Below, piece by piece: positions 8,791-26,900 of a stretch of 64,000 nt of DNA; the stretch's first letter is position 1, and the number at the start of each line of letters is the position of its first letter. Location: assembly GCA_022510405.1 (NCBI GenBank), contig JAFLTP010000001.1:1-64000 (forward strand). The letters run 5' to 3'. This DNA comes from Muribaculaceae bacterium (GTDB lineage Bacteria > Bacteroidota > Bacteroidia > Bacteroidales > Muribaculaceae). Below the pieces are notes generated by a model. It saw nothing but the letters and a program-made list of their open reading frames with translations. It was not told the DNA's origin and did no database searches. A program made the translations under genes and the position numbers.

Positions 8791-8876
8791 GTAGAAGTTG
8801 TAAGTTGTGAGTTTTGAGTTGTAAGTTTTGAGTTTTAAGTTGTGAGTTTTGAGTTGTAGGTTTTGAGTTGTGAGTG
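8791..8876. repeat. Heptamer tandem repeats in the padR leader
   Basis: About eleven consecutive 7-bp units of the form KTRAGTT (GTAAGTT, GTGAGTT, TTGAGTT, TTAAGTT and so on) fill the whole 5' untranslated region between the predicted padR transcription start and its ATG. No other signal is seen in it. Confidence 0.85.
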
Positions 8877-8917: not shown

Positions 8918-8959
8918 CTAAAAATTTTTAGTATTATTTTCACACGAAATCTAAAAATG

Positions 8960-9110
8960 TTTGGATTGGTGTAAAATCCGAGGTATAAAAAGTTTGGGAT
9001 TGGTGTAATTTTTGTATTATAAAAATGTTTGGATTGGTGTAAATTTACTATTGCAAAAATCCTTGGATTGGTGTAAATTTGCATATATGAAAATGTTTGG
9101 ATTGGTGTAA
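8960..9110 (+). repeat. Five spaced copies of TTTGGATTGGTGTAA
   Basis: Copies of the 15-bp core start at about 8960, 8993 (one extra G), 9028, 9062 (first base C) and 9096, which is a 33-35 bp period. The intervening ~19 bp differ in sequence but are AT-rich. The array fills the gap between padR and the ATPase gene, and a sixth copy lies just after the ATPase stop (10501). It is too short in both repeat and spacer to be a standard CRISPR array, and no cas genes are near. Confidence 0.9.
9051..9081 (+). promoter_or_regulatory. Predicted promoter of the ATPase gene inside the repeat array
   Basis: A perfect -7 box TAAATTTG (9074-9081) overlaps the end of the fourth repeat copy, and a TTGC lies 19 bp upstream (9051-9054). 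The predicted start is near 9088, about 55 bp before the ATG, leaving the fifth repeat copy in the leader. Similar TAAA/TAAT tracts follow other copies, so each repeat may carry part of a promoter-like signal. Confidence 0.5.
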
Positions 9111-9141
9111 ATATATTGTATTATATTGTAATTCAGTTTAT

Positions 9142-10494: not shown

Positions 10495-10500
10495 AAAAAA

Positions 10501-10514
10501 TTGGATTGGTGTAA
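10501..10514 (+). repeat. Sixth copy of the ATPase-associated repeat
   Basis: TTGGATTGGTGTAA lies 6 bp after the TAA of the ATPase gene, in the 41-bp gap to the convergent small secreted protein gene. With the upstream array, the ATPase gene is bracketed by the same repeat in the same orientation. Confidence 0.85.
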
Positions 10515-10535
10515 TCTGTTTATATGACCATTAGA

Positions 10536-10826
10536 TTATTTTAAATATTGAATCTGAACCGAGCCACCGGTTGATGTGAATTGTAAATTTGTGCCTGAAT
10601 AATTTTTCGGAAAAGCCACACAGATATCTCCTGTTCCTTCCCAGATTTCAGTATTACCATTTGTCCCTTTACAAGTAAGGCTACCATTAAACCAAACCTG
10701 TACGGAACCTATGGATCGTGAATTAGACGGACAATTCCCTCTAAATGAAGCTGACCCATAAGTCCAGTCAGCAAATGCCATAAAACTGATTGTTACGGTA
10801 AATAAAAAAGCTGCAAATTTCTTCAT
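10536..10826 (-). CDS. Small secreted protein, unknown function
   Basis: 96 residues: a clear Sec signal peptide (MKKFAAFLFTVTISFMAFA, cleavage before DWTYG) and a mature part of ~77 residues that is Gly/Ser/Thr-rich with two cysteines (RGNC, LTCKG) and a third in GDICVAF. It looks like a small beta-rich extracytoplasmic domain. I do not recognise the family. It is the last gene of the minus-strand island, 20 bp after a putative lipoprotein gene. Confidence 0.65.
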   Translation of the reverse strand: MKKFAAFLFTVTISFMAFADWTYGSASFRGNCPSNSRSIGSVQVWFNGSLTCKGTNGNTEIWEGTGDICVAFPKNYSGTNLQFTSTGGSVQIQYLK

Positions 10827-10846
10827 AAATACTTTTGTTTACAATG

Positions 10847-11323
10847 CTATTGTTTATAATATAATGTACCCGGGTCTCTAACATCAAAAATATAAATTGA
10901 TCGATAGGTTTGAGTTATGATCCAAGTTGTTTCACCATAAGGAGTATTGAAAGAAAATACTGCATACGGGAAACCGTCAGAATTCTTCCCAAATTCTTCC
11001 ACGCTTATCGCTCCACCAATACCAGTTCCATTTACAGAAACATTAGAAGCTGAACTGCCAAATGAAATAGAATTACCGGAATCATCCCTAAAAGTTTGGT
11101 GAGACAATTCCACTTTTACATCAGAAGGTGAATTAAATCTTAATAATGAATCATTTTTACTATTTGTCTTTTCTTTTTCAATTATAAGATCACTATTATT
11201 ATCAATATTATGATAATTATCTGATTTACCACAAGAATTGAAATTTACAATACATCCTATCCAAACAAATATTTGAATACAGATGTTTAAAATAACATTA
11301 TCATGAAAAAACTTTTTAAACAT
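10847..11323 (-). CDS. Putative lipoprotein, unknown function
   Basis: 158 residues. The N-terminus has a hydrophobic stretch and an FNSC lipobox-like site at about residue 31, followed by a polar region rich in Asn and Asp. The C-terminal ~80 residues contain FGSSASNVSVNGTGIG and GFPYAVFSFNTPYGETTWIITQ, suggesting a beta-rich domain. No known family recognised. It lies between the zinc-ribbon protein gene (101-bp AT-rich gap) and the small secreted protein gene. The N-terminus is unusually long for a lipoprotein signal, so the start or export mode is uncertain. Confidence 0.6.
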   Translation of the reverse strand: MFKKFFHDNVILNICIQIFVWIGCIVNFNSCGKSDNYHNIDNNSDLIIEKEKTNSKNDSLLRFNSPSDVKVELSHQTFRDDSGNSISFGSSASNVSVNGTGIGGAISVEEFGKNSDGFPYAVFSFNTPYGETTWIITQTYRSIYIFDVRDPGTLYYKQ

Positions 11324-11424
11324 ATAAAACTATTTATTATAATAATTATTGAATTATATTTTTTCAAATGGTAAAAATCAATTGAAATTTTTCAGTATAA
11401 ATTAATTCATTTATTAAATATTTT

Positions 11425-12750
11425 TTAATAATATTCAATAACTCTTATTATTTCTCCATTTTTATCAGGATGCAAAAGAGAATTAGAACTAAATTTCCAT
11501 GTACAATATATCCAATTTTCTTTTTCATCAAACTTAAAATTATAATATTGAATATCATTTGAATAATCTATTATTTCACCATTATAATATTCTAATTCGT
11601 TAAAAATAAAACTGGAAATAACATTATTATTGTATGAAAAATGACCAGATATAATTCCAACTCCATTAACTTTAGATAATTGATTTCTATTCCATTCATA
11701 TTCTATAATATCACCTTCGTCATTTTCAGTATATTGTCTTTCTATTTTAATAATTTGATTAAGATGGTTTCTACTTATAGAAATAATTGGAATTCCATTA
11801 ACATTAACAGATGTATAATTATCCCAATAACCATTCTTATTAAATTGTATAACTCCATTTAAAAGATAATCACCTCCAACTCCCACATTACAACTATATT
11901 TCTTTACTTTCCCATGGAGATTGAAGAAATCAAGATCTGGACTTGTAAATGATTTTTTCAATTCTTCTTCCTTAAGTGCATTAATTTTGTTAAATATTTC
12001 TTTATCTGTTAGGTTATTATAATCTATTCCTGATTTTCTTAATAAATTTAAGCCTTCTTCTGGGAAGTTGAATAAACCTTTTGAGTATGCAACGATATAA
12101 TTATCATCCTTTTCTTGAGTGAATATTAACTTCACTGTTGGAGATAGTCTAACCTCATATACACCATCTGTAATTGTGATCACGTCTATTTGTTTTGAAT
12201 CAAATGGCATTGTTATCAATAAAGAATCTCCATAAAAATCAGGATAATAATTTTTAATTGAATTGTTATTGCCATAAGAAAGTAAATCAACGAAATTCTT
12301 TGCAAAATTTTTAGCTTCAATTTCGGGTTTAGATTTTAGATAGGGAGAAATAAAAGGTACCGACTCAATATAATAATGATAACTAACTATTCCTCCTGCA
12401 ATAATAATTACAGCTGCAATAATACCTAATATTATTCCTAATTTACTTTTCTTTGGCTCATCATAGACAGGAAGAATCAAATTCCCATCCTCGTCATATT
12501 GATTCAGTGGAGTTCCAGGTTCTTCCTCAAGGTTGGGTATCCTTGTAGAAGGACTATTCTCTTGAATCGAATCTTGGAAACTTAAAGATTCGGATTTTGT
12601 TTCAGTCGGTTTTTCAATCTTTACTTCATCTTTTTTAGTTTCTGTAACACCAGCTTCTTCAACAATTACCGGTTGCTTTAGAGGATTCCCACACCGGCTA
12701 CAAAATTTATAATTATCAGGGTTCTTTTGACCACACTTCGTACAAAACAT
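11425..12750 (-). CDS. Zinc-ribbon membrane protein with extracytoplasmic domain
   Basis: 441 residues. The N-terminus is a double-CxxC zinc ribbon (C3, C6, C17, C20), followed by an acidic, low-complexity linker (about 28-100) with Glu/Lys/Thr, one TM helix (LGIILGIIAAVIIIAGGIVSYHYY, about 103-126), then ~310 residues outside. The outer part includes an NTF2/DUF-like region (FAKNFVDLLSYGNNNS) and a C-terminal YD-like repeat area (IQFNKNGYWDNYTSV, EYEWNRNQLSKV). The gene starts 14 bp after a strong hairpin. No function known; zinc ribbon plus TM is a recurring architecture in this island. Confidence 0.75.
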   Translation of the reverse strand: MFCTKCGQKNPDNYKFCSRCGNPLKQPVIVEEAGVTETKKDEVKIEKPTETKSESLSFQDSIQENSPSTRIPNLEEEPGTPLNQYDEDGNLILPVYDEPKKSKLGIILGIIAAVIIIAGGIVSYHYYIESVPFISPYLKSKPEIEAKNFAKNFVDLLSYGNNNSIKNYYPDFYGDSLLITMPFDSKQIDVITITDGVYEVRLSPTVKLIFTQEKDDNYIVAYSKGLFNFPEEGLNLLRKSGIDYNNLTDKEIFNKINALKEEELKKSFTSPDLDFFNLHGKVKKYSCNVGVGGDYLLNGVIQFNKNGYWDNYTSVNVNGIPIISISRNHLNQIIKIERQYTENDEGDIIEYEWNRNQLSKVNGVGIISGHFSYNNNVISSFIFNELEYYNGEIIDYSNDIQYYNFKFDEKENWIYCTWKFSSNSLLHPDKNGEIIRVIEYY

Positions 12751-12763
12751 AATTGTAAATTTT

Positions 12764-12812
12764 AAAAATAGAGCCCTTTCTGTATAGTTATATGATAACT
12801 TAAAAGGGCTCT
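12764..12812 (-). terminator. Terminator or attenuator hairpin between two zinc-ribbon genes
   Basis: On the minus strand AGAGCCCTTT and AAAGGGCTCT (10-bp perfect arms) enclose a loop that itself contains AGTTAT/ATAACT arms, and TTTTT follows. It lies after the stop of the 12844-13332 gene but only about 14 bp before the ATG of the next gene, so it could act as an attenuator for that gene as well as a terminator. Confidence 0.75.
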
Positions 12813-12843
12813 AAACGAAATTTTATTTACCTTTCTATATGAC

Positions 12844-13332
12844 TTAATCTTCTTTTTTATCATCAGGAATTAAAAGGCTTACAATAATTGTAATAAGATA
12901 AAAAGCAACATATCCTAAAACACATATTGCCGCTCCCCAAAAAAAGAAGTTATATATGCCTGACTGATTTTCTGCTTTATATACCACATCTGAGAATAGA
13001 CTAAATATCCAATTTGGTATAATAAATAACCCGTGCCAAATTGCGTCTAAAAAACCATACTCCTCATATGGGTCAATATCACAAAGGAACCTAGGTGATA
13101 ATATGATATATACAAAAATTCCGGCACATATAATCCAGAAAAATGAATTTGAAGACTTTGTGGTACTTATAGGGGATGGTGACTCATTGTCATCTTGACT
13201 ATCTTTATCGGTATTATCCATATTGCTTAATTTTGAAGACTCAGTTATCGAAGACTCAACCTTGGTGCCACATTCTTTACAAAACTTGGCACTATCATTA
13301 AGCTTGTTACCACACTTTGGACAAAACTTCAT
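12844..13332 (-). CDS. Zinc-ribbon membrane protein
   Basis: 162 residues: an N-terminal zinc ribbon (C4, C7, C18, C21), a Ser/Asp/Asn-rich linker (about 25-60), then hydrophobic segments at about 64-82 (FFWIICAGIFVYIIL), 95-115 and 130-155, giving two or three TM helices. It ends in the hydrophilic tail PDDKKED. No enzyme motif. It sits 12 bp after the truncated zinc-ribbon ORF and is followed by a terminator-like hairpin. A role as a membrane component of the island's system is inferred from context only. Confidence 0.7.
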   Translation of the reverse strand: MKFCPKCGNKLNDSAKFCKECGTKVESSITESSKLSNMDNTDKDSQDDNESPSPISTTKSSNSFFWIICAGIFVYIILSPRFLCDIDPYEEYGFLDAIWHGLFIIPNWIFSLFSDVVYKAENQSGIYNFFFWGAAICVLGYVAFYLITIIVSLLIPDDKKED

Positions 13333-13344
13333 TTTTAAGATTTC

Positions 13345-13680
13345 CTAAAATATTATACCCAATAAGAAGCTTACACCGAAACCAATCAATCCCCATGTAA
13401 GACAACTTTTAGCATATACAGGTTCTTTGTCCTTTTTGACAAAGTAAAAAATAATACCTACAATCGGAACTATGAAACAAAGGATTTTCATCCAAACTTC
13501 AGCGTCCTGATAGGATGCTTCTTGTTGGAAATTTTGTTGGAAAGCAGGATCTACATATCCAGTCTGACCATATGGTTGTTGCTGATACTGTCCATATCCT
13601 TGAGGATTGGAATAAGATTGTTGGGATGGTCCCATACTCAATTGGTTGGAACCACAATTTGGGCAGAATTGAGCACCGTT
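13345..13680 (-). pseudogene. 5'-truncated zinc-ribbon membrane protein
   Basis: The open frame begins directly after the TAG stop of the upstream gene, in the same frame, with NGAQFCPNCGSNQ. That is only the second half of a zinc ribbon (one CxxC instead of two). A Gln/Tyr/Pro/Gly-rich linker follows (SQQSYSNPQGYGQ, YQQQPYGQTGY), then two TM helices (AEVWMKILCFIVPIVGIIFYF and a C-terminal one ending LLGIIF). There is no ATG before the CxxC; a TTG at 13641 or ATG at 13635 could give a ~98-residue protein without a complete ribbon. Either it is a deletion remnant fused to the neighbour's stop, or it is translated by reinitiation or stop readthrough. Confidence 0.6.
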
Positions 13681-14379
13681 CTATTGTTGTTTTACAAGAT
13701 AGTTTGAATTCTTATAGAATAATTTTACACTTTGTTTTATTCTATACCAAAACCATAAATATGTTAATTCACAAAAAATAGTCCTTGTAATAGTTAAATC
13801 GCGGTAAAAAGTCAGAATAAACAGACAAAAGGATATTATCATTAAAACTTTTCCATCCCAGTTAAATTCTACTTTATTAAGACACAAATAACCAATTATA
13901 CCAATTGAAATATATGAAAATTGGAAGATAATTTTAACAATTAAATCAGGTTCATAAAAATCACCATATGAGAGTGTGCCAATCAACTCAATGAACAAAC
14001 CTAAACTCCAAATTAAGGGTGTAATATATAATAGTGCAGAATTGAAACCGCTTTTATATAAAACCCTAATAAAATGCATAAATAAAAAAAGGAAAGATGC
14101 ATCAATTAAAATTGCTAAAAAGGGTAAAGAGATTAAATCTCTCAATTCTAAAGTAATATTCATAAGAACACCATTAAAATTAAAAATATCACCCCAATAA
14201 AAGAAATAAACCAGTAATAATACAAAGCATAAAATAATAGAAAATCTAAAGGTATTAATTCCGCAATATCGTTCACAGAATCTAATAACATTTTGTTTTA
14301 TTGGATTTAATACTTTTCTTGAACTATAGTTATCCGGCTGATTCGAGTATGGATTATTAGAGTCAATCATAATTAACAT
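13681..14379 (-). CDS. Polytopic membrane protein, unknown function
   Basis: 232 residues with a polar N-terminus (DSNNPYSNQPDNYSS) and about six hydrophobic segments (for example FSIILCFVLLLVYFFYW, FLAILIDASFLFLFMHFI, LIWSLGLFIELIGTL, FQFSYISIGIIGYLCL and MIISFCLFILTFY). No recognised motif. Its TAG stop abuts the truncated zinc-ribbon frame. The C-terminal end FYKNSNYLVKQQ could once have been the first knuckle of the adjoining zinc ribbon (positions of missing Cys), but this is speculative. Confidence 0.6.
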   Translation of the reverse strand: MLIMIDSNNPYSNQPDNYSSRKVLNPIKQNVIRFCERYCGINTFRFSIILCFVLLLVYFFYWGDIFNFNGVLMNITLELRDLISLPFLAILIDASFLFLFMHFIRVLYKSGFNSALLYITPLIWSLGLFIELIGTLSYGDFYEPDLIVKIIFQFSYISIGIIGYLCLNKVEFNWDGKVLMIISFCLFILTFYRDLTITRTIFCELTYLWFWYRIKQSVKLFYKNSNYLVKQQ

Positions 14380-14684
14380 TTTAATTAGAGTGTAATTAAT
14401 AAATTTTGCTATCTTAGTTATATTATCTTAGATTTAAATATTTTTCTATATTAATTAAGTTTCTCAAGTTGATTAAACTATTATTATTCAAACTCTTCTG
14501 TGTTGTGAAAGAAGGTTCCATTTACCATTTATCCCCAGCGGTGAACATCATCGATGTTTCTTGAAAGGGGTTTTCTTTTTTAAGTTTCTCCGAAACTTTA
14601 TTTTTATAATAACTCAACATGCGAAACATCAAACCATATTATTAATTCTTAAATATATAATTAATTTCAGAATAAAATTTCTGT
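14380..14684. other. 305-bp intergenic region with two small hairpins
   Basis: AT-rich gap with no convincing ORF. It contains AACATC/GATGTT (14544-14558) and AAGTTTC/GAAACTT with a 3-base loop (14582-14598). The second is T-rich on both sides when read on the plus strand and A-rich on the minus strand, so it would work as a plus-strand terminator, although no plus-strand gene is near. No TAnnTTTG promoter box was found for the 13681-14379 gene. Confidence 0.5.
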
Positions 14685-15176
14685 TTATCTAAGAGCATCC
14701 ATCATATCACCAATTACATGATTAACAATATCAGAATAAAGTTTAAACATTTCCCCGGCTAACTTCATTTGTTTTTTATGTTGAGAGTAATTTAATTCCC
14801 CTTCACTATCAGCCTCATCAAGACTTCTTTTAACTGGATCATATTTCTTTTTTATTGCATCAGCTAATTCACGTGCTTCCTTATCTTTTAATTTTCCTGC
14901 AAAATATCTATTTTTTAATTGTTTCAGTTCTTTTATCCCTTGATCTAAACATTTCAACATTGCATCATAATCATCACTTTGTGCTATTTCAGTGATGCGT
15001 TCATCTCTTATTTCAATACTAATCGAGTGATCTTCATCCCGATTAGATTTAGAATTTCTGTATTCACTTCTATGACTTTCCTTAGCTCTTGCATGAGAAG
15101 ATCTGTGCCTGCAACTTGTGCAGACACAGATTATAACTATGGAAAGACAAATGAGAAGCCTATAGTATCTTTTCAA
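14685..15176 (-). CDS. Lipoprotein, unknown function
   Basis: 163 residues: a type II signal sequence with lipobox CTSC (lipidated Cys at residue 22), a basic/polar stretch rich in His, Arg and Ser (RHRSSHARAKESHRSEYRN), and then an all-helical region (about 60-160: DDYDAMLKCLDQGIKELKQL, GKLKDKEARELADAIKKKYD, YSQHKKQMKLAGEMFKLYSD). Likely anchored in the outer or inner membrane facing the periplasm. It lies 24 bp after the TM2-domain gene in the island operon. The Ser/Arg/His-rich start is similar in style to that of the vWA lipoprotein. Confidence 0.7.
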   Translation of the reverse strand: MKRYYRLLICLSIVIICVCTSCRHRSSHARAKESHRSEYRNSKSNRDEDHSISIEIRDERITEIAQSDDYDAMLKCLDQGIKELKQLKNRYFAGKLKDKEARELADAIKKKYDPVKRSLDEADSEGELNYSQHKKQMKLAGEMFKLYSDIVNHVIGDMMDALR

Positions 15177-15200
15177 GTCTTTTAGTTTTTCAATAAATTA

Positions 15201-15773
15201 TTAGGCGACATGATCACGATGGAAATCCGCATCGGATTTAGTCAAATAAATTATACCTTCTATCAAACCTAAAATTCCCGGAATATACGTCCAACAAAAC
15301 ACCAAGTATAAAACCCCCATGCCTGTTTTACCAAGATAGAACTTATGGGCACCTAAAGCTCCTAAAAAGATCGCTAACAATCCAGCAGTTGTTTTACTTT
15401 TAGGATAATATGCAGGTTCATTTCCATTTGTATAATAATGCTGATGAACAGTCTGTTGAACAGGTTGATTTTTCTGATGCTGCATTTCTTTTTCACGAAT
15501 TTCAAGCTCTTTCGCTTTCAAAGCTAATTCAGCCTTTTTTAATTCATGATCCATATTTGGAGATGAATGGGTTACTTCCTGAGGTTGGGCATATTGCACA
15601 TTAGAGGAAGTTGGGTTTCTTTTAATTGTTAAATCATCTTGCCCTCCATGTTCAATTGTGGCTGTGACCGTTGCACCACAGCGTGGACAAAAAGATTGAC
15701 CTATCTCTCCTGTTTTATACTGGGACTCATCTATCGAAACAATAGAGTTACAATCAGGACATTTTACATTCAT
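15201..15773 (-). CDS. Zinc-ribbon TM2-domain protein
   Basis: 190 residues. The N-terminal zinc ribbon (C5, C8, C29, C32) resembles MJ0042/zinc_ribbon_5 types. A coiled-coil linker follows (HELKKAELALKAKELEIREKEMQHQ, about 75-105), then a C-terminal TM2 domain (about 125-185): KTTAGLLAIFLGALGAHKFYLG, the Gly-rich loop, YIPGILGLIEGIIYL. TM2 proteins are small two-helix membrane proteins found near many envelope systems. The gene lies 8 bp before the coiled-coil membrane protein's stop and is in the same operon as the actin/tubulin-like pair. Confidence 0.8.
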   Translation of the reverse strand: MNVKCPDCNSIVSIDESQYKTGEIGQSFCPRCGATVTATIEHGGQDDLTIKRNPTSSNVQYAQPQEVTHSSPNMDHELKKAELALKAKELEIREKEMQHQKNQPVQQTVHQHYYTNGNEPAYYPKSKTTAGLLAIFLGALGAHKFYLGKTGMGVLYLVFCWTYIPGILGLIEGIIYLTKSDADFHRDHVA

Positions 15774-15781
15774 AACTTTCT

Positions 15782-16564
15782 TTATATTAAATTTATTTGT
15801 ACTTTATTTTCAATAATCCAATCGTTACCTTCTCTTTTTACTATTCCTGGTTTTATAGTCACTGCTTTCGTGGGGCTAGAACTGGGATTCCCGACGATTA
15901 TACAAGCACTTTCAATATAATCTGTTACAGAACGCAATGCAACCGACAAAGCCTCTTTTCTATCAGAAAAAGAAAATTCCACCGCTCCTTTTCCATTATC
16001 ATTTATTGAGTAAATAGATTGACCTGGTGTAAAGGAAGATCTTCCTCCTGAAAATTTGTTACCTCTTGGTGGACCGAAATATATCACTCGGTTGATTCCA
16101 GACTCTTTTTTTGTTTCAGTGTCTACTTCTTTAGATTCAACCGGCTGCTTTTTGTTCTCAGAAATAGAAGAATAAGTATTTTCTATGATAGGCGAAATTT
16201 TATTAATATTTGAAGATAATTTGGTTTTAAGTTCATCTATAGTAGTTTGCAATTCTGAAATTTTTAATTCTAATTTTTTAAATTCAGAATTATTTTTATT
16301 CAGCGTAGCTTCATTTGACTTTTTTAAGTCATTTTTAAATGAATTCTTTAAAACTGATAATTCTTTCTTTAAATTTTCAGTTTTAATAATCACAAAGACT
16401 GCTACTATACATGCAACAGCAGCGAGAGCGATGCCTATAATAGGCCCCGCAGTCCAAAAGCCATTGTCACTTGAAACTTGTTCCACTTCTTTTATGGGAG
16501 CAGTCTCCTGAGCAATGATAGCTATTGGAAATAATAGAAAAAAGATACTAGATATTGTTTTCAT
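15782..16564 (-). CDS. Coiled-coil membrane protein, unknown function
   Basis: 260 residues: signal peptide (MKTISSIFFLLFPIAIIAQ), a TM helix (TAGPIIGIALAAVACIVAVFVIIK, about 38-61), a long coiled coil (about 63-125, with KKELSVLKNSF and KKLELKISELQTTIDELKTKL), then a C-terminal domain of ~110 residues containing VIYFGPPRGNKF, FTPGQSIYSI and NDWIIENKVQINL. The signal peptide plus TM places the N-terminus outside and the coiled coil inside. That would put the coiled coil in the cytoplasm, where it could contact the actin/tubulin-like proteins encoded next to it. The gene is 9 bp downstream of the actin-like gene. Confidence 0.7.
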   Translation of the reverse strand: MKTISSIFFLLFPIAIIAQETAPIKEVEQVSSDNGFWTAGPIIGIALAAVACIVAVFVIIKTENLKKELSVLKNSFKNDLKKSNEATLNKNNSEFKKLELKISELQTTIDELKTKLSSNINKISPIIENTYSSISENKKQPVESKEVDTETKKESGINRVIYFGPPRGNKFSGGRSSFTPGQSIYSINDNGKGAVEFSFSDRKEALSVALRSVTDYIESACIIVGNPSSSPTKAVTIKPGIVKREGNDWIIENKVQINLI

Positions 16565-16573
16565 AATAAAATA

Positions 16574-19500
16574 TTAATCAGGGGCCACTACATCTCTTAT
16601 AATATTCTTGATGGCTGCAAAAAAGGGCACATCGGCATATTTACCTTTTTCTTTTTCTTTTTCTGAAGATTCATCATAGATGTCCCCTAAAGCTGTCCGA
16701 ACATATTTTTTTATCTTTTGTTCTTTTAAGCTCAGGAAATCATCGTCCATTTTTTCTGCATCTATGTTGAATTCTTCTCCTTCTAGTTCAACAAACTTAG
16801 CAAAAGAATTATGAAAATCAACAACAGTCTTTGTTACTGCCTCAATAAGTTCTGAATCCTCTAAATCTGCTATGGCAATATCATCTTTATTTTCATAAGA
16901 ATCAAGAAGTTTAAAGCGACTGCAGTAATTTTTTTCAACATCACTTGAATTTTTGGATTCTGCTAATTCATTTCTGAACTCAATGGCTTTGTTAGAAGGA
17001 AGAGCTCCTTTTGCAGTGATTTCTTTTGACATGTCTCCTGCCTTCTTAATGGTGATGTCAAAATCATCTTCATCAAAATCGTCTTCAGCAAAATGATTAT
17101 ATAGCGCGGTAGTTAATGATTCCAATGGCACTGCTTTTGAATCTATTATATCCAGCATTTTCGATCCCGAACCACTAAAATAAAATCTTGTTGGCCTCAT
17201 ATCCTCAGTACATCCTTCATTTTCACAAAGTTTGGTTAAGAAATATAAAATTGCCGCATAATAATATTGAAAAATATTATGATAGAAGGGTTTCTCCTGA
17301 AGCCAACGGTTGTATGATACCTGATTTACAATATCTTTAACAATTTCATTTCTCTGCAAATTAAATAGAGTGCCTGTTGCTTCTGCAGCTTTTTTATTTT
17401 CATCAAGCAAATCTTGAAGATCGTTAGCCAATTTCAAATATTTAACTTTTTTATCTCCTTTTGCTTCAGCCGCTTGCAGTCTGCTCTTAATTTCTTTTAT
17501 GGCATTTTCAATCATTTTGATATTCCTGGCTCTCTCATCTATACCAAAAATAACGTCTGCGCCGAACCCTATTGAAGATAATTTGGATTTCTTGATTTTT
17601 CCATCTGGCACTACTACTATATCACAAGTGCCTCCTCCTATATCTATTGACAAAGCAGTGTCTCGTTTAGCCATTCCTTGATCTAAATGATACAACATAG
17701 GAGCAATTGATTCTGAAATCTTTTTTACTTCCTCTCCCTCTTCATCATTTGCAAAATATTTTTCATAAGCCTCTTCCCAATGTTTTTGGAAACTCCTGAT
17801 ATGAGTGGCGCTCATACTCAATGGATAGGTCCATATAATAGAGCATTTAGATAAATTCACATCTTTAGTAACAGCAAAAGCTTGGGCGAGGAGCATAATT
17901 TCATTGATAAATGCAAATGTCATCTGGCTACTCACCTTTTGGTTTGAAAGACCCCATTTCAAACCTGTAATCACTTCATTAAAATTACGGCCATAATCCT
18001 CATAGCCATATAAAAATGGTATATAAGATGCAAAGAGTGGTATTTCTGTGTCATCTACTGAAACTTTTGCATCCTGTTTCTTTGGAGTTGCAATTACAGA
18101 GGCAAGAGGGAACGGTAGTTGTTTGACCCATTTTGGGAACATTTCTTGTTTTGAATATAACTCAAAAGATTGAACCGTGAGGTCAGTTGATAAATTTGTA
18201 GTTGAATTGCTAATAGTGCTTACCAATAAATCTACCGGCAATTTAAAATCTATAAATTCATCATCATTTTCCTTCACTGCCACATAGGTATTGGATGTTC
18301 CAAAATCAAAGCTGAATTGAAGGAATTTATGATTATTTCCCTCATAATAAGAATTGAAATCAGGAATTAAGATGGCGGTTAATACATTATTGTCTTCATC
18401 TTCCTTAGCATTTATAGATATTTCGATAAGACTGAATGTTGTATCTTGAATTGAATAATTAACAATAGTGTCAATTTTTGATTCAGAACGACGTCTATAT
18501 TTTTTTACATCAATATCTTCATATTCATTTCCAGATTCTTCCTTTTTGTAAAATTTCAAATTTATGTTATAATCGGAAAGACTGAATTGATCACGCATTA
18601 ATTGCACCGTATAATGATTCTGTTCCTTTCTCTTAAATCTTACAAATGGAAATATAGAAAGTGCTATAGAGGATTCTAATATATTTCCTGTGGCTGCGAT
18701 TGGAGAGGACTCAATATGATTTAGTTCAATATTTTCTTGATCCATACTCATATAAGTCTTACGGAAAGTGACAAAACCTCCTTTAACAGGAACTTTCAGA
18801 ACAACTTGAACTTGATTTACAGTGTTTAAATCAGAATTAAATCTGTCTTTAGTGGTATTTACTAATATTTTGATATTCTTTTTGAGATCATCAATTGTGA
18901 AATATTCGAAATATTTCATCTTAATTGGAGGAATAAATCCACAATCATCCGGACAACCTTCTATATTCCCATCAAAAAAGCCCTTTTCATCGGTGTTTAA
19001 TTTATAAGGCAACTTGAAAATACAGTCGGCCAAGAAATCGTGATCATAAATAAAGCCATGGGAATACGGAGTGCCATTTGGAAGCTCGCGGGATTCTATG
19101 GGTTGATTTTTCAAATTTAAATCATCATAGGTGAAACCTGGCTTATTGGAATCCCATTTAACATTTTCAGAAGTATAAATTGCATTAGACATCTGAGTGG
19201 CTACAGAGAGCACCAATGGCTTTGCCTTAGGATTAATCTTTGATTGCAAAACTAAATCGCTGGCAGACTCGATAAAGTTATTTACGGCACCTCCGGCTTG
19301 TTTACAGAAAGCTAAACCAAATATTTGAATCTCGGTGCCATTAAAATCTACCGGTACATAATTCTTTTCTAAATTCGTTTCTGCGACTTCAGGTTTTGAA
19401 ACTTCCTCTATTGCCTGATAGAGGTCAAAATTAATTTGACTTATCTTAGTTTTTTGATGTTCCAGATATGTTCCAAACTCAATTAATGGGTCGGGAGTTT

Positions 19501-20161: not shown

Positions 20162-21720
20162 TATTTATTCTTTAAAGATGATAATTCAAATTTGGAATCT
20201 AAGATTTTATCTAAGGCTTCAAACCCCATTCCTAATAACTTAGAAATCATTGATGTATCCTTTTGATTTCTATAGTCATTCCTTTTTCCATTAAGACTTT
20301 GGATTATATCATCTTTATCAATTTTAGCATAACCCAAAGTTCCTTTCTTCATATTGACATCATTAATTATCCCAGAATAATCTTTACTTAGATTTACAAT
20401 TCTTGTAAAAGGAATAAAATTGTGTGCTTGATCACCATGTTGTGACATTTCATATAGCCAGGCACGATATTCATCTATAAATTTATCTAATTCAATGCTC
20501 ACAGCGGCATTTGAAAGGCCTGTTTCTTTTGCATAGGCATCTGTAAGAGAGCCATTAAAATGACCATCCTTAATAAAGCTTGTGAAGATATGATACTTTA
20601 TCATAGGTACACTTATCATATCATTAGTGTCCTTACTTAGATGAATAAAAGAAATTTCATTTGAAGGAGTTGATAAAGAAAATTCCCAACACTTGCGGTT
20701 AATTTCTTTGACTATCCTTCTTCTATTTTCTATCTCAGTGACATCTGTATCATCAACAGGCTTTTGTGCGAACTCTAATACTGCCATAGCACCGATAAGT
20801 TCCACTATATGGGCAGCATTTTTACCTTGACCTCCTTTCCCCGGATCATTTTCAAAGGGTAGAGGTTTCTGAGTATCAGCTAAATAATAGATATCATTTA
20901 AATAAGGATTCAAGTCTTTTTCATAATATTTTAAGGCGGACTTGGTCTTGATAATAAAATCCGCTTCTTGAATTTCCGAATATTCGTTTTTTGCTATTGA
21001 GAAATATGGCATGACAATTATAGCGGCCATCTGTGCCAAAGGAAAATCTTTATAATCTCCTCTAAGATTTCTAAATGAAGAAGCGAGCATTGGTAAGCCA
21101 GCAGCCCCTGTTCCACCGAAAATAGATCCTATGAATATAATCCTGTCGTTCTCGTTGAAATTTTGTAACAAAGCACTAAAAGAATCGCTTTTTTGGAAGA
21201 CATTCAGAGCCACGGTACCAATATTTGGAGAACCATAAAAACCCTCACTCATCTTGGTATTTAACTCTTCTTCAGAGAAAATCATTTTAGAAAAAAGTTT
21301 GGCTTCTCTCTCCACATCAGGATCATTTAAACCGATAAAATTTTTAAATTCCGTGGCGGCTATTTCCGGCATATCGAAGAAGAATCCTTCGGGCAATTTA
21401 TATGTGACGGAAGTATCGGATTTATTACTTGTACAGATATCTTTTAATGTGGCGACCTTAACAGCATAGAAACCCTTTGTGGCAGTGCTTTCACCATATA
21501 TGTCATTATGGATATTTCTATATTTCAACAACAAATCATTGGCCCTTTGTAAGGAAGCGTTGTCGGTGTGAGGATCGATTATGAGAGGAACCAAAGTAAA
21601 ATTTTCCAATGGTTTTTTTGTAATAGGGTCAACCGGCACAACACCGGCTGCCAACTGCATCACAAGAGATCTTAGCACTCTTGATCCAGTTCCTCCAATT
21701 GCAAAAACAAAAAGACGCAT
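20161..21720 (-). CDS. Tubulin/FtsZ-like GTPase, divergent
   Basis: 519 residues. The N-terminus FAIGGTGSRVLRSL (about 6-19) is the glycine-rich nucleotide-binding start seen in FtsZ/tubulin-like families. Residues ~190-210 hold FIGSIFGGTGAAGLP, which matches the tubulin/FtsZ signature (G-G-T-G-[SA]-G). The middle and C-terminal parts are family-specific. It is not FtsZ itself: it lacks the FtsZ C-terminal peptide and the sequence around the signature differs. Divergent FtsZ/tubulin families encoded next to membrane, zinc-ribbon and vWA proteins have been predicted to act in membrane remodelling. The coupling to an actin-fold ATPase gene is striking. Confidence 0.8.
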   Translation of the reverse strand: MRLFVFAIGGTGSRVLRSLVMQLAAGVVPVDPITKKPLENFTLVPLIIDPHTDNASLQRANDLLLKYRNIHNDIYGESTATKGFYAVKVATLKDICTSNKSDTSVTYKLPEGFFFDMPEIAATEFKNFIGLNDPDVEREAKLFSKMIFSEEELNTKMSEGFYGSPNIGTVALNVFQKSDSFSALLQNFNENDRIIFIGSIFGGTGAAGLPMLASSFRNLRGDYKDFPLAQMAAIIVMPYFSIAKNEYSEIQEADFIIKTKSALKYYEKDLNPYLNDIYYLADTQKPLPFENDPGKGGQGKNAAHIVELIGAMAVLEFAQKPVDDTDVTEIENRRRIVKEINRKCWEFSLSTPSNEISFIHLSKDTNDMISVPMIKYHIFTSFIKDGHFNGSLTDAYAKETGLSNAAVSIELDKFIDEYRAWLYEMSQHGDQAHNFIPFTRIVNLSKDYSGIINDVNMKKGTLGYAKIDKDDIIQSLNGKRNDYRNQKDTSMISKLLGMGFEALDKILDSKFELSSLKNK

Positions 21721-21739
21721 ATAATATTATTTACATTAT

Positions 21740-22207
21740 TTAAAAAGGACGAGTGCTACAATTCGTACTAAAACTTTTTATGCAGAAACTTATTAGGAAA
21801 TAATATACCAAAGTAAATGGCAGGGATATTATAGCTAAATTTATAAGATCAATTTCAAAGTTCCAGTTTTCTTCTAAAAATACTCCTAATGGATAATAAA
21901 AGAATATAAAAGGAACTATTGCAGCAGTAAAAATTCCAAAAAGCATCCACCAAACAAATGAGGACAGTTTAATTTGGTCAATGACCCAATAATATAAAAC
22001 TGCAAATATCCAAACCACTATTGACATTAGCGACGCTAATACGAAATACATATCGTAGTCATACATCGCATCTGCAAATGTGTCTGTTCCAATATAAAAA
22101 GTTGTTATAAGGGGTTCTGCAAAAACAAGATATAAAACTGTAATGGCTATTCCTACCATAAGAAGAATCCATGATACGGGTCCTTTTGCATTGTTTACGT
22201 TAAACAT
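21740..22207 (-). CDS. Four-TM membrane protein, unknown function
   Basis: 155 residues with four clear TM helices: WILLMVGIAITVLYLVFA (about 12-30), YFVLASLMSIVVWIFAVLYYW (about 54-74), FVWWMLFGIFTAAIVPFIFFYY (about 83-105) and LAIISLPFTLVYYFLISFCI (about 125-145). No catalytic motif. It lies 8 bp after the vWA lipoprotein gene and 19 bp before the tubulin-like gene, so it is a likely membrane partner in the same operon. Confidence 0.7.
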   Translation of the reverse strand: MFNVNNAKGPVSWILLMVGIAITVLYLVFAEPLITTFYIGTDTFADAMYDYDMYFVLASLMSIVVWIFAVLYYWVIDQIKLSSFVWWMLFGIFTAAIVPFIFFYYPLGVFLEENWNFEIDLINLAIISLPFTLVYYFLISFCIKSFSTNCSTRPF

Positions 22208-22215
22208 GATTTATT

Positions 22216-23586
22216 CTATTTAGTATTAATATTTATAGGTAGAGAAAAAAGTAATAGACTTGGGTTGTTAGCTGTATAGGCGTTATAGATACCTTGCATC
22301 ATAGATTCAAATGCAAAAGTAGTCCTGTTGAAATTAGCCTCATTAATATCGGAATCATCATTTGTGGAAGACTGTGTTATCCATCTTGGAAATTTATATT
22401 TCAAGTTGATATATATCGTTTCATTCTTAATATCTTCATCTGTATTTAGAAGTATTATATGAGTAGCTCCAGGACAGGATTCGTAAACGGTTTTATCCTC
22501 AGTGTCTTTCAAGCTTTCAATTTTAACAATCTCAAATCCTGATTGAGAAATTATCTCGTAATTCGAAAGATCTTTTTTATAAGCTTCCGACATTGGTACA
22601 GAGGAAAGGTTTACAGCCACGGGAATACTTAATTCATCCCTTGTCATATGAACATTTTGTAATGAATGAATCGCGCCTTTCTCTCCTTTTTCTTTTCTGA
22701 ATTCTCCTTTTTTCCCAAAACCTCTCTGAATTACTGAATATTCGGGTTTAAATTTTTCAGATGTAAAAAAGAACATATCTTGATATCCCGGTAAAGTTGA
22801 GAAATGATAGAAATTAGCATATTTAGGATCATTGCATAAAGTTTCCACACCAATTTTGGAAGTAAAAATCATAGCATAATATGGTCGATCTCCCATGTAT
22901 TCAATTCCTCGAGAAGGTGAATTATAAGGATAGTATTTCCCGCCATAATCAGCTATAAATTTTATAACCCAAACGCCTCCAGAGGAATGATTCTTAAAAA
23001 TGTTTCCCGTCAACGCTTTTGCCTCGTTCATTAATTTCTGTGGATTGACTTCCTCTTGACCCTTAACAGAATAAATTAAATCGGAAATTAAAACACTGAC
23101 AGAATACTGTTCTTCATTTGCCATAATCATTTCAAATATTTTATAAAAATCGGTAAATGAAGGGTCTCCTATATCTTTAGTGGCGGCAAATAAATCTCTT
23201 TCTGAAATAAAATTTCTAATAGTCCCTTCGAAGGGATAGACATTATTATTAACTATGAACAAAGCATTTGAGTCATTTTCTTCTTTGATTGGGAATCTGT
23301 TCAATAAATCTGCGACTGTTTCTTTAAATTCCCCTTTTGAAGAATTGGCATCAAAACCAATCATCGAACCGCTTCTTTCCAAATAGAATTTAAGGTCGAG
23401 AGGATGATAGGAAGTCCTGGTGTTTCTAACATCAGATAATTCTTCTTCATTGTCAGTCCCAACCACTTCTGTAGTTTTTTCCCCTCCAGATGAACGTGAA
23501 GAAGAACGACGTCCATGTGAACAAGAAAAAAACAATAAAGAAAAAGATAATGCAACAGCAACAAACCTTAGGGTTCTTAAATTCAT
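22216..23586 (-). CDS. Divergent vWA-domain lipoprotein
   Basis: 456 residues from the ATG at 23586, chosen over an ATG 45 bp upstream because it gives a proper lipoprotein signal (NLRTLRFVAVALSFSLLFFSC, Cys 22). A Ser/Arg/Gly-rich linker is followed by LKFYLERSGSM at about 65-75, which aligns with the vWA MIDAS DxSxS, with Glu 70 replacing the first Asp. YSVSVLISDLIYS further on fits the second metal-site Asp strand. The C-terminal ~150 residues are of unknown fold. As a lipoprotein it would sit on the periplasmic or outer face. A structured leader RNA with a terminator precedes it. Confidence 0.75.
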   Translation of the reverse strand: MNLRTLRFVAVALSFSLLFFSCSHGRRSSSRSSGGEKTTEVVGTDNEEELSDVRNTRTSYHPLDLKFYLERSGSMIGFDANSSKGEFKETVADLLNRFPIKEENDSNALFIVNNNVYPFEGTIRNFISERDLFAATKDIGDPSFTDFYKIFEMIMANEEQYSVSVLISDLIYSVKGQEEVNPQKLMNEAKALTGNIFKNHSSGGVWVIKFIADYGGKYYPYNSPSRGIEYMGDRPYYAMIFTSKIGVETLCNDPKYANFYHFSTLPGYQDMFFFTSEKFKPEYSVIQRGFGKKGEFRKEKGEKGAIHSLQNVHMTRDELSIPVAVNLSSVPMSEAYKKDLSNYEIISQSGFEIVKIESLKDTEDKTVYESCPGATHIILLNTDEDIKNETIYINLKYKFPRWITQSSTNDDSDINEANFNRTTFAFESMMQGIYNAYTANNPSLLLFSLPININTK

Positions 23587-23632
23587 TTCAAATATATGTT
23601 TCTCCTTCAAGACCCGAAAGGAATTTTTCAAT

Positions 23633-23876
23633 AAAAAAAGCGTGAGCCCTGTTCGACCTTACCAATTAGGCATCAATCGTAACAGCTCACACCTACACCA
23701 ATAATCTTACCAATATTATACTGTTTTGGCAAGGTATAATATCGAGATAATACTATTGTTGGAGCAATTTGTCACTTCCTGTTGCCAATGAATTGTGCAG
23801 ATTCACTATGAGAAAGTTCGAAACGCTTCTCTAAAATGTCTTTTTAACCCCCAAAAGGATTAATAATGCAAATTTA
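23633..23876 (-). ncRNA. Leader RNA copy A with terminator, upstream of the vWA lipoprotein gene
   Basis: Read on the minus strand: -7 box TAAATTTG (23869-23876), a variable ~28 bp, a 60-nt core (23781-23840) nearly identical to copy B, a hairpin with 9-bp arms ATATTATAC/GTATAATAT (23713-23742), and a terminal hairpin GTGTGAGCTGTT/AACAGGGCTCACGC followed by seven T (23633-23692). The core can form two small hairpins, GAGAA/TTCTC and TGAAT/ATTCA. The ATG of the lipoprotein gene is 47 bp after the T-run. CTTGCCAA can pair with either of two TTGGTAAG segments, one of which lies in the terminator loop. A leader attenuator is likely; an independent small RNA is possible. I saw nothing else in the 387-bp gap 23587-23973. 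Confidence 0.7.
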
Positions 23877-23973
23877 ATCTAATTTTTTTTAATTCGCTAT
23901 TTTCTAATTAGAGAAATTGACTTCTCGAATTTTTAATTTTTTCTCAATGAAAAAATATAATGATATAAGCAAA

Positions 23974-24477
23974 TCAATCAAAGAACCAGAGGTATAAATC
24001 ATGCAAACAACTAGACCCTAAGAAAAGCAATGCTAAAGCACCTACCACATAGGATATTTTAGATAAAACATTCTTTCCATTTAGCTCAGTCCAATTCATA
24101 GTGGCTCCCATGAAAGCAAGAATAGCAAAACCGGCTATAACATATAAGATATAGGCGAAGATTTGATCCACTTTTAAATCCAACAACTGAGCCACTATAC
24201 TAAATATTATAAGAGTCGCTATGGTAGACAAGATTGACACCAATGGGCTCATAGACCATTCTTTATCTTCGGTCTCATTCTCGACTAATGCAGTTTCAAT
24301 CTGGGATTCTTCTAATTGAATCTCATTAGAGGCTGTCATAATTTCAGCATCCAAGTCAGATGTTATTACTTGATCATTAACACTTGTTATTTCTTCATGA
24401 CCTTGTTTAGTGCCACATGAGCTGCAGAAGGAGGCATCATCGGAAAGTTGATTTCCACATTTAATACAGAATTTCAT
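23974..24477 (-). CDS. Zinc-ribbon membrane protein
   Basis: 167 residues: N-terminal zinc ribbon (C4, C7, C18, C21), an acidic linker (about 28-78, rich in Glu, Asp and Thr), and three TM helices (LVSILSTIATLIIFSIVAQLL, IFAYILYVIAGFAILAFMG and the C-terminal VVGALALLFLGSSCLHDLYLW). It has the same design as the 12844-13332 protein. It stands alone between two leader RNAs, 48 bp downstream of the terminator of copy B, so its expression is probably controlled by that leader. Confidence 0.7.
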   Translation of the reverse strand: MKFCIKCGNQLSDDASFCSSCGTKQGHEEITSVNDQVITSDLDAEIMTASNEIQLEESQIETALVENETEDKEWSMSPLVSILSTIATLIIFSIVAQLLDLKVDQIFAYILYVIAGFAILAFMGATMNWTELNGKNVLSKISYVVGALALLFLGSSCLHDLYLWFFD

Positions 24478-24524
24478 ATTAGTTAGTTTTTATTAGGATC
24501 AATAAGTATTTTATAGGAAATAAT

Positions 24525-24818
24525 AAGAAAAGTGTGAGCCTTGTTCGGACCATTCATAGTAAGCTCTGCACTGCCTCAGCAACAATGGTCAAGAACAACT
24601 CACACCTGAGGCAGTTTATGATTTAAGAAAGACATACGTGGTTGTGCGTATGTACATGCATAATACATGCCCAAGGGAGAGCGTCTTCTTCCTTTCCGTT
24701 GCTAATGAATTGTGCAGATTCACTATGAGAAAGTACGAAACGCTTCTCTTAATATGTCCGCCAGACGGGTTTCTCCACCTGACATTGCAAATTTATAAAA
24801 AATTTGTTTATATACAAA
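24525..24818 (-). ncRNA. Leader RNA copy B with strong promoter and terminator, upstream of a zinc-ribbon gene
   Basis: On the minus strand: TTTG (24815-24818), exactly 19 bp, TAAATTTG (24788-24795), a textbook Bacteroidetes promoter. Then comes a ~30-bp spacer, the 61-nt core (24698-24758), a hairpin ACATACG/CGTATGT (24632-24653), and a terminal hairpin in which GTGTGAG, TTGTTC and GACCATT pair with their partners (24532-24605), followed by TTTTCTT. The sequence ACTGCCTCAG just before the terminator can pair perfectly with CTGAGGCAGT in its loop, an alternative fold that would trap the terminator's 5' arm. The zinc-ribbon ATG lies 48 bp downstream. The rest of the 442-bp gap (24819-24919) shows no gene. 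Confidence 0.75.
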
Positions 24819-24919
24819 CAGGTGTAAGTTGTCTTTGACCTTTGGTTGCCAATAAATAGCTGGTACAAAATTAAAAAAGAAAGATCAAAGACTGTATATA
24901 CAAATTGTCCAAATTCATT

Positions 24920-26212
24920 TTAGTTACTTTCGCATTGAGGCGTTTCACCAATTTCTGATTCCTCAGATGTTGTTTCCTCCATCCTAGGATAAAGTTTCTC
25001 ACGCATTTTCCCTGTTCTTGTTTCAAATGTTATTCGGACTCGTTCATCAATGAACTCTCCTCGACTAGGATATTGCTTTTTCAATCCTTCACCATATAAT
25101 TCCAACTGATCATATGCCTCAAGACATTTGTTAACAAATTCCGGGTCAGTTCCTAATGTGTATTTATATTCTTCATCAGCCATCATTTTATTATACATCG
25201 GAATTACTTTAAGGGAATAAAGCTCATCAAGTTTCTGAGAAATCATTTTAGTCAATTTCCTTTCGATTTCTTCTTCTGATGGTTGGATGTGTACTTTGGG
25301 CTCAATTGGTTTAAAAGTTTCTTCTCTATTGACTTCTTCAATTGTGGAATCTTGCGGTATAGGATATTGGGTAAGTAATTCCTGATTTATCTGTTCTTTC
25401 AAATTATCCTTTTGAGGTGGTTTAGCAATCAAACTAATTATTCCTCCCAAAATCATAAGTAGGAGAAGATTGGTAAACCATTTATTTGTAATTTTATAAT
25501 TTTTGGGGACAGCCTTGAGTGCCTCAGATGCAGATTTAAAACGATTATCGGTATGATTGGCTGTAGCTTTCCCCACAAATTTTCCCCAATATTTGGAAAG
25601 TTTCGTTGCCGAGGAAAGTTCATCCATTATTTTCCCAACCAGAAAAATGTCAGTACTGACATTCACATTTCCGGTCAACTGTTCGGGCGCCTCATAACCT
25701 TCCGTGTATCCCGGTGTGGAATCATTGGAAGCGCTTTGGGCACAACTAAAATCAATTATCTTTACTTGACCTCCAATATTGGTGACCATCAGATTTTCAG
25801 GTTTCAAATCAAGGTGCACGATTTCCTTGGAATGAATATAATCCAAAGCCAACAATATTTGGGAACAAATGTTAATTAAAAATTTCTTGTCTAATAATCT
25901 TGGATCCTTTGTATCGAGCAGTTGTCTTAAAGTTTTTCCCTCAATATACTCTTCGTATAGCTTATTGTCTTCAAGTGCATAATATCTTACGATCCCTGGA
26001 TGATTCAACCCGTATCCTATAAGAAATTCTTTTTTGAGAGCTAGGGTGGTAACTAAATCATTTTTATATTTTTCGGTGGGCTCCTTAACGAAATGGAGTA
26101 CACCATTTCTTCTTACTATATAGTATGAGAAACGAGATGACTCGCCAATCTCAATAGGAAATCCTTCAGGAAAGGAAGAAGACACAGTATCGATATTAAA
26201 TCCGCTTTCCAT
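24920..26212 (-). CDS. Membrane-anchored Ser/Thr protein kinase
   Basis: 430 residues. The N-terminal kinase domain (about 20-225) has the ATP-binding Lys 43 (HFVKEP), the alpha-C Glu near 62, catalytic IVHLDLKPENL (H133-L-D135, K137, N140), metal-binding DFS at 154-156 in place of DFG, and APE at 175-177. The glycine-rich loop is weak. A single TM (about 247-262, TNLLLLMILGGIISLIA) separates it from a ~165-residue extracytoplasmic, Glu-rich helical region. The key Lys and Asp residues are present, so activity is plausible. It is preceded 17 bp upstream by a putative DNA-binding protein gene, and likely signals within the island system. Confidence 0.85.
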   Translation of the reverse strand: MESGFNIDTVSSSFPEGFPIEIGESSRFSYYIVRRNGVLHFVKEPTEKYKNDLVTTLALKKEFLIGYGLNHPGIVRYYALEDNKLYEEYIEGKTLRQLLDTKDPRLLDKKFLINICSQILLALDYIHSKEIVHLDLKPENLMVTNIGGQVKIIDFSCAQSASNDSTPGYTEGYEAPEQLTGNVNVSTDIFLVGKIMDELSSATKLSKYWGKFVGKATANHTDNRFKSASEALKAVPKNYKITNKWFTNLLLLMILGGIISLIAKPPQKDNLKEQINQELLTQYPIPQDSTIEEVNREETFKPIEPKVHIQPSEEEIERKLTKMISQKLDELYSLKVIPMYNKMMADEEYKYTLGTDPEFVNKCLEAYDQLELYGEGLKKQYPSRGEFIDERVRITFETRTGKMREKLYPRMEETTSEESEIGETPQCESN

Positions 26213-26229
26213 GTCAATCCATTTTCATA

Positions 26230-26784
26230 TCAATCTATTATTTCTATATAAGTTATCCCTTCATCGGGCGCTGCCATATAATTACCCAAAGATTTGCGTT
26301 CTCTTACAACTTCTTTAACCATGAAAGGAAAACCGATAGCTATCTGAGAGAGTGTCAAAAAATCTCCAGATTTCAATTTGCTGTTGCAAGCATCCAAAAT
26401 CTGGTAGTTACAATTACCCTTATGCTCGATTATAATTTTTCTGTTTGGCTCCCAACCTATTTTTATTTGTTTCCCAATGGAGATCTTTTCTAAATCGATA
26501 AATCCTTGTGGGCAGTTGAATTCAGAAATTTTTCCATTGGCGATCTGAATCAATATATTCCAATCTTTATAACCTAAGTACCTGGAAATGATGTCAAGAG
26601 TAGTTATTCTTGGAGAAGAATCGTAAGGTAAGATTCCGGTGAGCCTTTTTATTGTGTTGAGAGATAGTCTTTCTCCTATTTTTGATTCTATATCATTGCG
26701 GAGATATTCGGAACCAGATGGTGTTGTTACATCTTTGCCGGTTTTTTCATTGAGCAGTTTTATAATATTTCCATTGAGTTTCAT
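26230..26784 (-). CDS. Putative DNA-binding regulator of the island
   Basis: 184 residues. The N-terminal ~90 residues (LLNEKTGKDVTTPSGSEYLRNDI, LSLNTIKRLTGIL, TTLDIISRYLGYKDWNILI) match a helix-turn-helix-like domain common in small Bacteroidetes proteins that accompany signalling genes. The C-terminal half (about 95-184, KIGWEPNRKIIIEHKGNCNYQILD, LKSGDFLTLSQIAIGFPFMV) is a beta-rich domain of unknown role. It is the first gene of the minus-strand island and lies 17 bp before the kinase gene, so it may be controlled by, or report to, the kinase. DNA binding is inferred from similarity of pattern only. Confidence 0.6.
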   Translation of the reverse strand: MKLNGNIIKLLNEKTGKDVTTPSGSEYLRNDIESKIGERLSLNTIKRLTGILPYDSSPRITTLDIISRYLGYKDWNILIQIANGKISEFNCPQGFIDLEKISIGKQIKIGWEPNRKIIIEHKGNCNYQILDACNSKLKSGDFLTLSQIAIGFPFMVKEVVRERKSLGNYMAAPDEGITYIEIID

Positions 26785-26900
26785 ACTTCAAAAGAAAATA
26801 AAAAAATTGAAACAACAAAATGAGCTGAGAGATGTAAGAGAGCCTTCTTTGTTGACAATCACATATAGTGTTATGTTAATACTTATATCCTAAAATTAGT

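Follow-up and report, generated by a model that had tools for sequence, protein, structure and literature searches.

A five-gene module pairing a predicted tubulin-fold protein with a predicted MreB/Hsp70-fold ATPase in Bacteroidota

We describe here a cluster of minus-strand genes within the first 64,000 nucleotides of contig JAFLTP010000001.1 from a Muribaculaceae bacterium (assembly GCA_022510405.1), the stretch of DNA referred to below as the window. The conserved system in this cluster consists of five genes at positions 15782-23631, which encode, in reading order, a von Willebrand factor A (vWA)-like predicted lipoprotein, a small protein with about four predicted transmembrane (TM) segments (4-TM protein), a predicted tubulin/FtsZ-fold protein, an ATPase with a predicted MreB/Hsp70 fold and a coiled-coil protein. 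An earlier note, made from the sequence of the window, had proposed a larger island encoding one envelope-associated, kinase-regulated system that uses both cytomotive folds. The reading frames it named are present, and the tubulin stop codon and ATPase start codon do overlap by one base, position 20161.

The order and strand of the five genes are fixed among the relatives that we surveyed. Searching named genomes with an alignment of 39 tubulin sequences gave a first set of loci, the best 80 of 491 relatives; it holds Bacteroidales, many from the rumen and closely alike, and also Cryomorpha, Pedobacter, Halomarinibacterium, Mucilaginibacter and Spirosoma. Clustering of the neighbours in these 80 loci and the window, always on the strand of the tubulin gene, recovered tubulin in 79 loci, the vWA-like protein and the ATPase in 76 each, and the 4-TM and coiled-coil proteins in 67 each; the corresponding profile counts for the 80 loci were 78, 75, 77, 66 and 66, the two loci without a tubulin count being those in which the gene picker lost the frame. 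In a second set of 57 stretches, from the order, genus and phylum, the tubulin match was strong in 39 and weak in 17, and one stretch (L227) is cut before the tubulin gene. By profile, the 39 strong loci carry tubulin in 39, the ATPase in 38, the vWA-like protein in 36, the 4-TM protein in 32 and the coiled-coil protein in 27, and the ATPase was found in 12 of the weak loci, or 14 when six-frame pieces are counted. The median gap in 113 same-strand tubulin-ATPase pairs is 27 bases, with 101 pairs separated by 100 bases or fewer, and in a survey of the order the ATPase adjoins 14 of 15 strong tubulin places, which lie in 13 of 393 genomes. The earlier proposal of a co-directional, membrane-associated system whose genes travel together is supported for the core; the remaining island genes lie outside it. 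Regulation by the kinase did not generalise: a relative of the kinase occurs in two of the 80 named loci and none of the 39 further strong loci, and it was rejected as a core component, since it is present in only 4 of 138 loci (the window, L002, L077 and L210); so few occurrences make it a local feature. Iterated profile search places the zinc-ribbon/TM2 gene in 7 of 138 loci; single-linkage clustering, a looser criterion, places it in 46 of 81.

The tubulin/FtsZ signature noted previously is present in the window protein as an N-terminal GGTGS and an FGGTGAAG motif, and residues F201, G202-G203-T204-G205-A206 and G208 are invariant in all 39 aligned homologues. The predicted model of the 519-residue protein matches the tubulin/FtsZ GTPase fold with a GGGTG-type T4 loop, and the nucleotide loop is kept in 113 of 118 sequences. 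The T7-type motif, sought only with the simple pattern NxDxxD/E, was found in just 3 of the 118, so that a partner protein, the ATPase perhaps, may control GTP turnover. Membership of Tubulin_2 (PF13809) did not hold for the window protein, which scores 14.2 bits against the curated cut-off of 27; across the family, 22 of 39 members match at E values up to 0.1 (best 1.3e-5), and a few homologues carry precomputed PF13809 annotation; the protein may still work in an FtsZl1-like manner. No phage family in PHROGs matched the tubulin, the ATPase or the vWA-like protein.

The ATPase carries the phosphate-1 (DFGTSN), phosphate-2 (DIGGGT) and adenosine (SGSGSK) motifs of the actin/MreB/Hsp70 superfamily, and its predicted model has the MreB/Hsp70 fold. 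Residues D619, G621, D840, G842, G843, D847 and G997 are invariant in 48 of 48 sequences, the phosphate-2 motif is kept in 110 of 115, and residues 1079-1195, which follow the ATPase domain where an Hsp70 chaperone has its substrate-binding domain, are predicted to be helical. We rejected the suggested SrfB family (PF07520), likewise a large protein with an actin/Hsp70-type ATPase part: the window protein has no match at E 1, and weak matches (best 0.0015) were seen in only 2 of 30 homologues. The absence of a match from the structure aligner's listing rules nothing out. In a distant tubulin branch (L233 and L236) the ATPase is 1360-1380 residues long.

The predicted lipoprotein of core gene 1 probably contains a vWA domain, as the earlier label had it. 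No Pfam or PDB profile hit was obtained, and a profile search of solved structures returned only galectin noise at E above 2; the label stands on profile-profile comparison. In hhalign the whole protein matched a vWA profile with P 5.3e-4 (31% probability) and the vWA-like domain alone with P 5.9e-5 (65% probability), against P 0.18-0.63 for six unrelated families, the reference being 38 segments from relatives chosen by their DxSxS motif, a choice that favours a match there. All three loops of the metal-ion-dependent adhesion site (MIDAS; DxSxS, Thr, Asp) align in this comparison, with the first Asp replaced by Glu. The motif [LF]xExSxSM occupies the MIDAS place, Glu being present in 92 of 99 proteins and the pattern unmatched in seven, and a lipobox (loose pattern) is found in 85 of 99. 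A Met codon 15 residues past the TTG of the window gene is a possible true start.

The features of the window are collected in Table 1. A Pfam scan of ten window proteins upheld the kinase label (Pkinase 4e-25) and the TM2 label (TM2 1.4e-19). The 184-residue protein had been called putatively DNA-binding, for which we found no support in Pfam, its sole match being FliL at 0.004, short of the cut-off. A solved-structure profile search with the coiled-coil protein gave no match at 0.01.

Table 1. Features of the gene cluster in the window, core genes first.
Feature	Position	Strand	Basis
vWA-like predicted lipoprotein, 471 aa from TTG, core gene 1	22216..23631	-	profile-profile match, motif
small membrane protein, 155 aa, about four predicted TM segments, core gene 2	21740..22207	-	reading frame, clustering, profile
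predicted tubulin/FtsZ-fold protein, 519 aa, core gene 3	20161..21720	-	motifs, profiles, predicted model
ATPase, 1195 aa; N-terminal part of ~600 residues; residues 611-1078 predicted MreB/Hsp70 fold; core gene 4	16574..20161	-	motifs, predicted model
predicted signal/TM and coiled-coil protein, 260 aa, conserved C-terminal domain, core gene 5	15782..16564	-	reading frame, clustering, profile
zinc-ribbon and TM2 membrane protein, 190 aa	15201..15773	-	Pfam, clustering, profile
lipoprotein-like protein, 163 aa; among surveyed loci common to L002 only	14685..15176	-	reading frame
zinc-ribbon membrane protein, 167 aa	23974..24477	-	PF13240 2e-8
protein kinase with TM segment, 430 aa; relative adjoins the same core in L002	24920..26212	-	Pfam
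184-aa protein of unknown kind; kinase neighbour in L002 as well	26230..26784	-	reading frame
six non-core secreted, lipoprotein and zinc-ribbon/TM genes	10536-10826, 10847-11323, 11425-12750, 12844-13332, 13345-13641, 13681-14379	-	
AT-rich stretch, absent from sister genome G400	9106..26890	.	composition, alignment to L142

The cluster is AT-rich, as had been noted, with a GC content of 0.29-0.36 at 10-26 kb compared with 0.36-0.42 at 1-10 kb and 0.39-0.48 beyond 26 kb. A sister genome (G400), whose LepA is 99% identical to that of the window, has an empty site: padR/pspC-like genes adjoin lepA, and window positions 9105 and 26891 align 41 bases apart in its stretch L142. No island gene was present in 17 stretches upstream of lepA, of which 16 are from the same genus and several are short. 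Matches are patchily spread, occurring in 27 of 101 genomes at the level of the genus, in 23 of 393 for the order and in 13 of 395 for the phylum. Two same-genus genomes in which both proteins were compared (G409 and G410) have LepA 88-89% identical to that of the window and tubulins only 28-36% identical, so that the genus holds very different versions of the system. From the empty site, the patchiness and these identities we conclude that the block was gained or lost; the transfer suggested earlier is supported to that extent, and its direction is not. Within the same 17.8-kb difference, and outside the conserved core, lies a plus-strand gene for an AAA-type ATPase (9097-10494), possibly an insertion of its own. 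Ahead of this gene a repeat with a 34-base period (core TTTGGATTGGTGTAA) occurs five times (8952-9115), and a sixth copy directly follows it (10492-10523); the array is present in part in the sister genome too. Further tandem repeats of 7, 21 and 35 bases (8795-8875) lie inside a 5' extension of the padR-like frame.

Around the core, relatives carry variable partner modules. ZorA-like and ZorB-like genes are each present in 21 of the 39 strong loci and a trypsin-like protease (Trypsin_2 1e-24) in 13; for the named set of 80 loci the respective counts are 5, 5 and 3, and for the 17 weak loci 1, 2 and 3. The ZorB-like protein matches PADLOC ZorB1 (5.9e-14) and, among solved chains, MotB-related 8vvn (4e-14) and ZorB 8qyd (2.5e-8); its TM Asp is invariant in 20 of 20 sequences, and its Pfam matches (OmpA 4.8e-5, MotB_plug 0.0089) both fall short of the cut-offs. 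Scores for the ZorA-like protein are weaker: PADLOC ZorA2 (6.6e-7) is tied with the coiled-coil protein LmuB (8e-7), coiled-coil proteins outscore ZorA (1.6e-4) in a PDB search, and Pfam gave no MotA/ExbB match at 0.05. MotA-type conserved positions are seen in 23 aligned sequences, and we accept the ZorA identity because of the motif PLYLGLMGT...G and the adjacency to ZorB. By reading frames and PADLOC, the window cluster has no ZorA or ZorB gene. In the weakly matching L233 and L236 the gene order is tubulin, ATPase, an unknown gene, a double-GTPase (5.9e-10 in L233, above the cut-off) and a GAP1-like gene (0.0027 and 0.01, short of the cut-offs). Neither double-GTPase nor GAP1 was found among the ten scanned window proteins, nor did the window hold relatives of the L233 genes; the window and L002 have instead the kinase, the 184-residue protein and zinc-ribbon/TM2 genes.

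Other neighbours were noted in passing. One stretch (L264, 7646-14636) has ZorAB-like genes without a tubulin, next to genes that we take, by motif, to resemble a vWA protein, a PP2C phosphatase and a protein kinase. A short lipoprotein-like family lies downstream of the core in L003 (17496-18122) and eight other loci, and is by its motif presumably a retropepsin-type aspartyl protease; Asp_protease matched 3 of 92 scanned flank genes. Two large genes (about 1100 and 800 residues) precede the core in L193, L194, L195 and L196, the first of which, in L193, matches HSP70 weakly (0.035) and PADLOC PDC-M61B (9e-8).

Tubulin-type and actin-type proteins have mostly been studied as separate cytoskeletons. 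We propose that the five-gene module is one envelope-spanning signalling machine in which the tubulin-fold GTPase and the MreB/Hsp70-fold ATPase act as a cytoplasmic, nucleotide-driven switch, a proposal whose chances we judge to be evenly balanced. It draws on the constant arrangement, close spacing and joint occurrence of the core genes, on the retained nucleotide motifs and the partner modules of relatives, and on the patchy spread with its empty site and divergent versions; Kaur et al. 2020 (PMC7159879) likewise assign such genes to predicted conflict systems. With its metal site the vWA-like lipoprotein would detect an event in the envelope, the signal would pass the inner membrane through the 4-TM and coiled-coil proteins, and on the cytoplasmic side the GTPase/ATPase pair would assemble or switch state. 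Once assembled, the pair would release an output that depends on the lineage. This output may be a ZorAB-like motor, a protease or both in many relatives, GTPase/GAP1 partners in the distant branch and, in the window, kinase-controlled membrane proteins of the TM2/zinc-ribbon kind. Given the genes that accompany the module, its role most likely lies in responding to conflict or envelope stress, phage attack being one example, rather than in housekeeping. A bolder version is doubtful, though we give it some weight: that the tubulin and the actin/Hsp70-fold ATPase are an obligate co-assembling unit gating interchangeable outputs (a Zorya-type rotary ion motor and a protease among them), a hybrid switch that would control a whole class of Bacteroidota immune machines at the envelope.

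Both predicted folds belong to filament formers, and the two proteins might instead form polymers at the inner membrane that curve it or give rise to vesicles. Such a role has been proposed for FtsZl1, whose linked genes encode vWA, kinase, GTPase and OmpA-family proteins (Makarova and Koonin 2010, PMC2875224). We think this unlikely here: the rarity of the T7-type motif makes standard polymer-coupled GTP hydrolysis doubtful, any polymerisation surfaces are putative, and the exchange of motor, protease and GTPase modules suits a switch better than a fixed device. Another reading takes the cluster for a standard defence system, Zorya or double-GTPase, reduced by the loss of parts. Relatives do carry ZorAB-like and double-GTPase/GAP1-like genes; however, the window has neither module, and it is the five-gene core that is constant and the modules that vary, which leaves part loss highly improbable. 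An apparatus for surface assembly or secretion, with a PilM/FtsA/MreB-like ATPase scaffold and the lipoprotein building or secreting a surface structure, we hold to be very unlikely: the core contains nothing recognisable as an outer-membrane channel, a pilin or a secretion ATPase, and the recurring partners are a motor pair and proteases.

Several observations weigh against the signalling machine as well. The vWA profile match is moderate, and no PADLOC family matches the tubulin, the ATPase or the vWA-like protein. In favour of the pair, distances between tubulins correlate with those between ATPases across 46 dereplicated loci (rho 0.81), as they do with those of the vWA-like (0.62), 4-TM (0.59), coiled-coil (0.29) and ZorB-like (0.53) proteins (in each case all 300 shuffles fell lower), but such correlations are explicable by linkage alone and are no proof of contact. 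The pairing itself has exceptions: other genes occupy the ATPase place in L071 and L077, a lone tubulin occurs on contig 206 of G239, L200 has an interrupted tubulin in an assembly with 13% contamination, and the contig of L018 stops 1.1 kb past the tubulin. A profile search found no ZorB-like gene in the window's own assembly (91.8% complete), so the motor link does not apply directly there. Across 393 genomes of the order the ZorB-like profile has 17 strong places, eight of them on a core-bearing contig; of five other places inspected, four lack a tubulin and one is cut off. A Pfam scan of 92 of 117 chosen flank genes, made without a control set, found phage integrase in four and scattered other genes, with no clear crowding of defence genes.

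The module resembles several known systems in part. With FtsZl1 and Tubulin_2 it shares a divergent tubulin-superfamily protein with an FGGTG loop, linked vWA, kinase and membrane proteins and, in several genomes, OmpA-family proteins; members here differ in being about 500 residues long without the long coiled coil described for FtsZl1, in having an MreB/Hsp70-fold ATPase as obligate neighbour and, in the window cluster, in lacking a P-loop GTPase. In the main text of PMC2875224, a term search showed MotA, MotB and Hsp70 to be absent and actin to appear as background only. The predicted conflict systems of Kaur et al. 2020 (PMC7159879) include tubulin, Hsp70, vWA, kinase and GTPase/GAP1 genes; tubulin and Hsp70 are described there as non-overlapping themes of GAP1-N2 systems, while another part of the text has systems in which GTPases are combined with an Hsp70 protein and with homologues of tubulin. 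The tubulin, Hsp70, vWA, kinase, trypsin and membrane components are thus common to both, and two distant relatives here have double-GTPase and GAP1-like genes, but the tubulin and Hsp70-fold protein form one adjacent pair here, and the window has neither GTPase nor GAP1. GAP1-N2 is recorded mainly from phyla other than Bacteroidota (Kaur et al.; PMC7159879); L233 and L236 place GAP1-like genes in Bacteroidota. The text of PMC12204202 describes MotA/TolQ-linked vWA force transducers, whose vWA proteins likewise adjoin motor genes but are tethered by a TM helix, as opposed to a predicted lipoprotein here, and mentions neither tubulin nor FtsZ.

Many relatives resemble Zorya in that a ZorA-like gene and, next to it, a ZorB-like gene follow the core, although the window cluster has no such gene; ZorC/D/E were not searched for. 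The tubulin/ATPase/vWA core is not known to be part of Zorya. A literature search covering mainly the main texts of openly available papers found no tubulin/actin-fold pair joined to a ZorAB-like motor. The conserved pair and envelope lipoprotein, with Zorya-like motor genes in relatives, make directly testable both a joint assembly of the two folds and its control of a membrane motor or protease. The module would link three literatures, those on FtsZl1 membrane remodelling, GTPase-centric conflict systems and Zorya.
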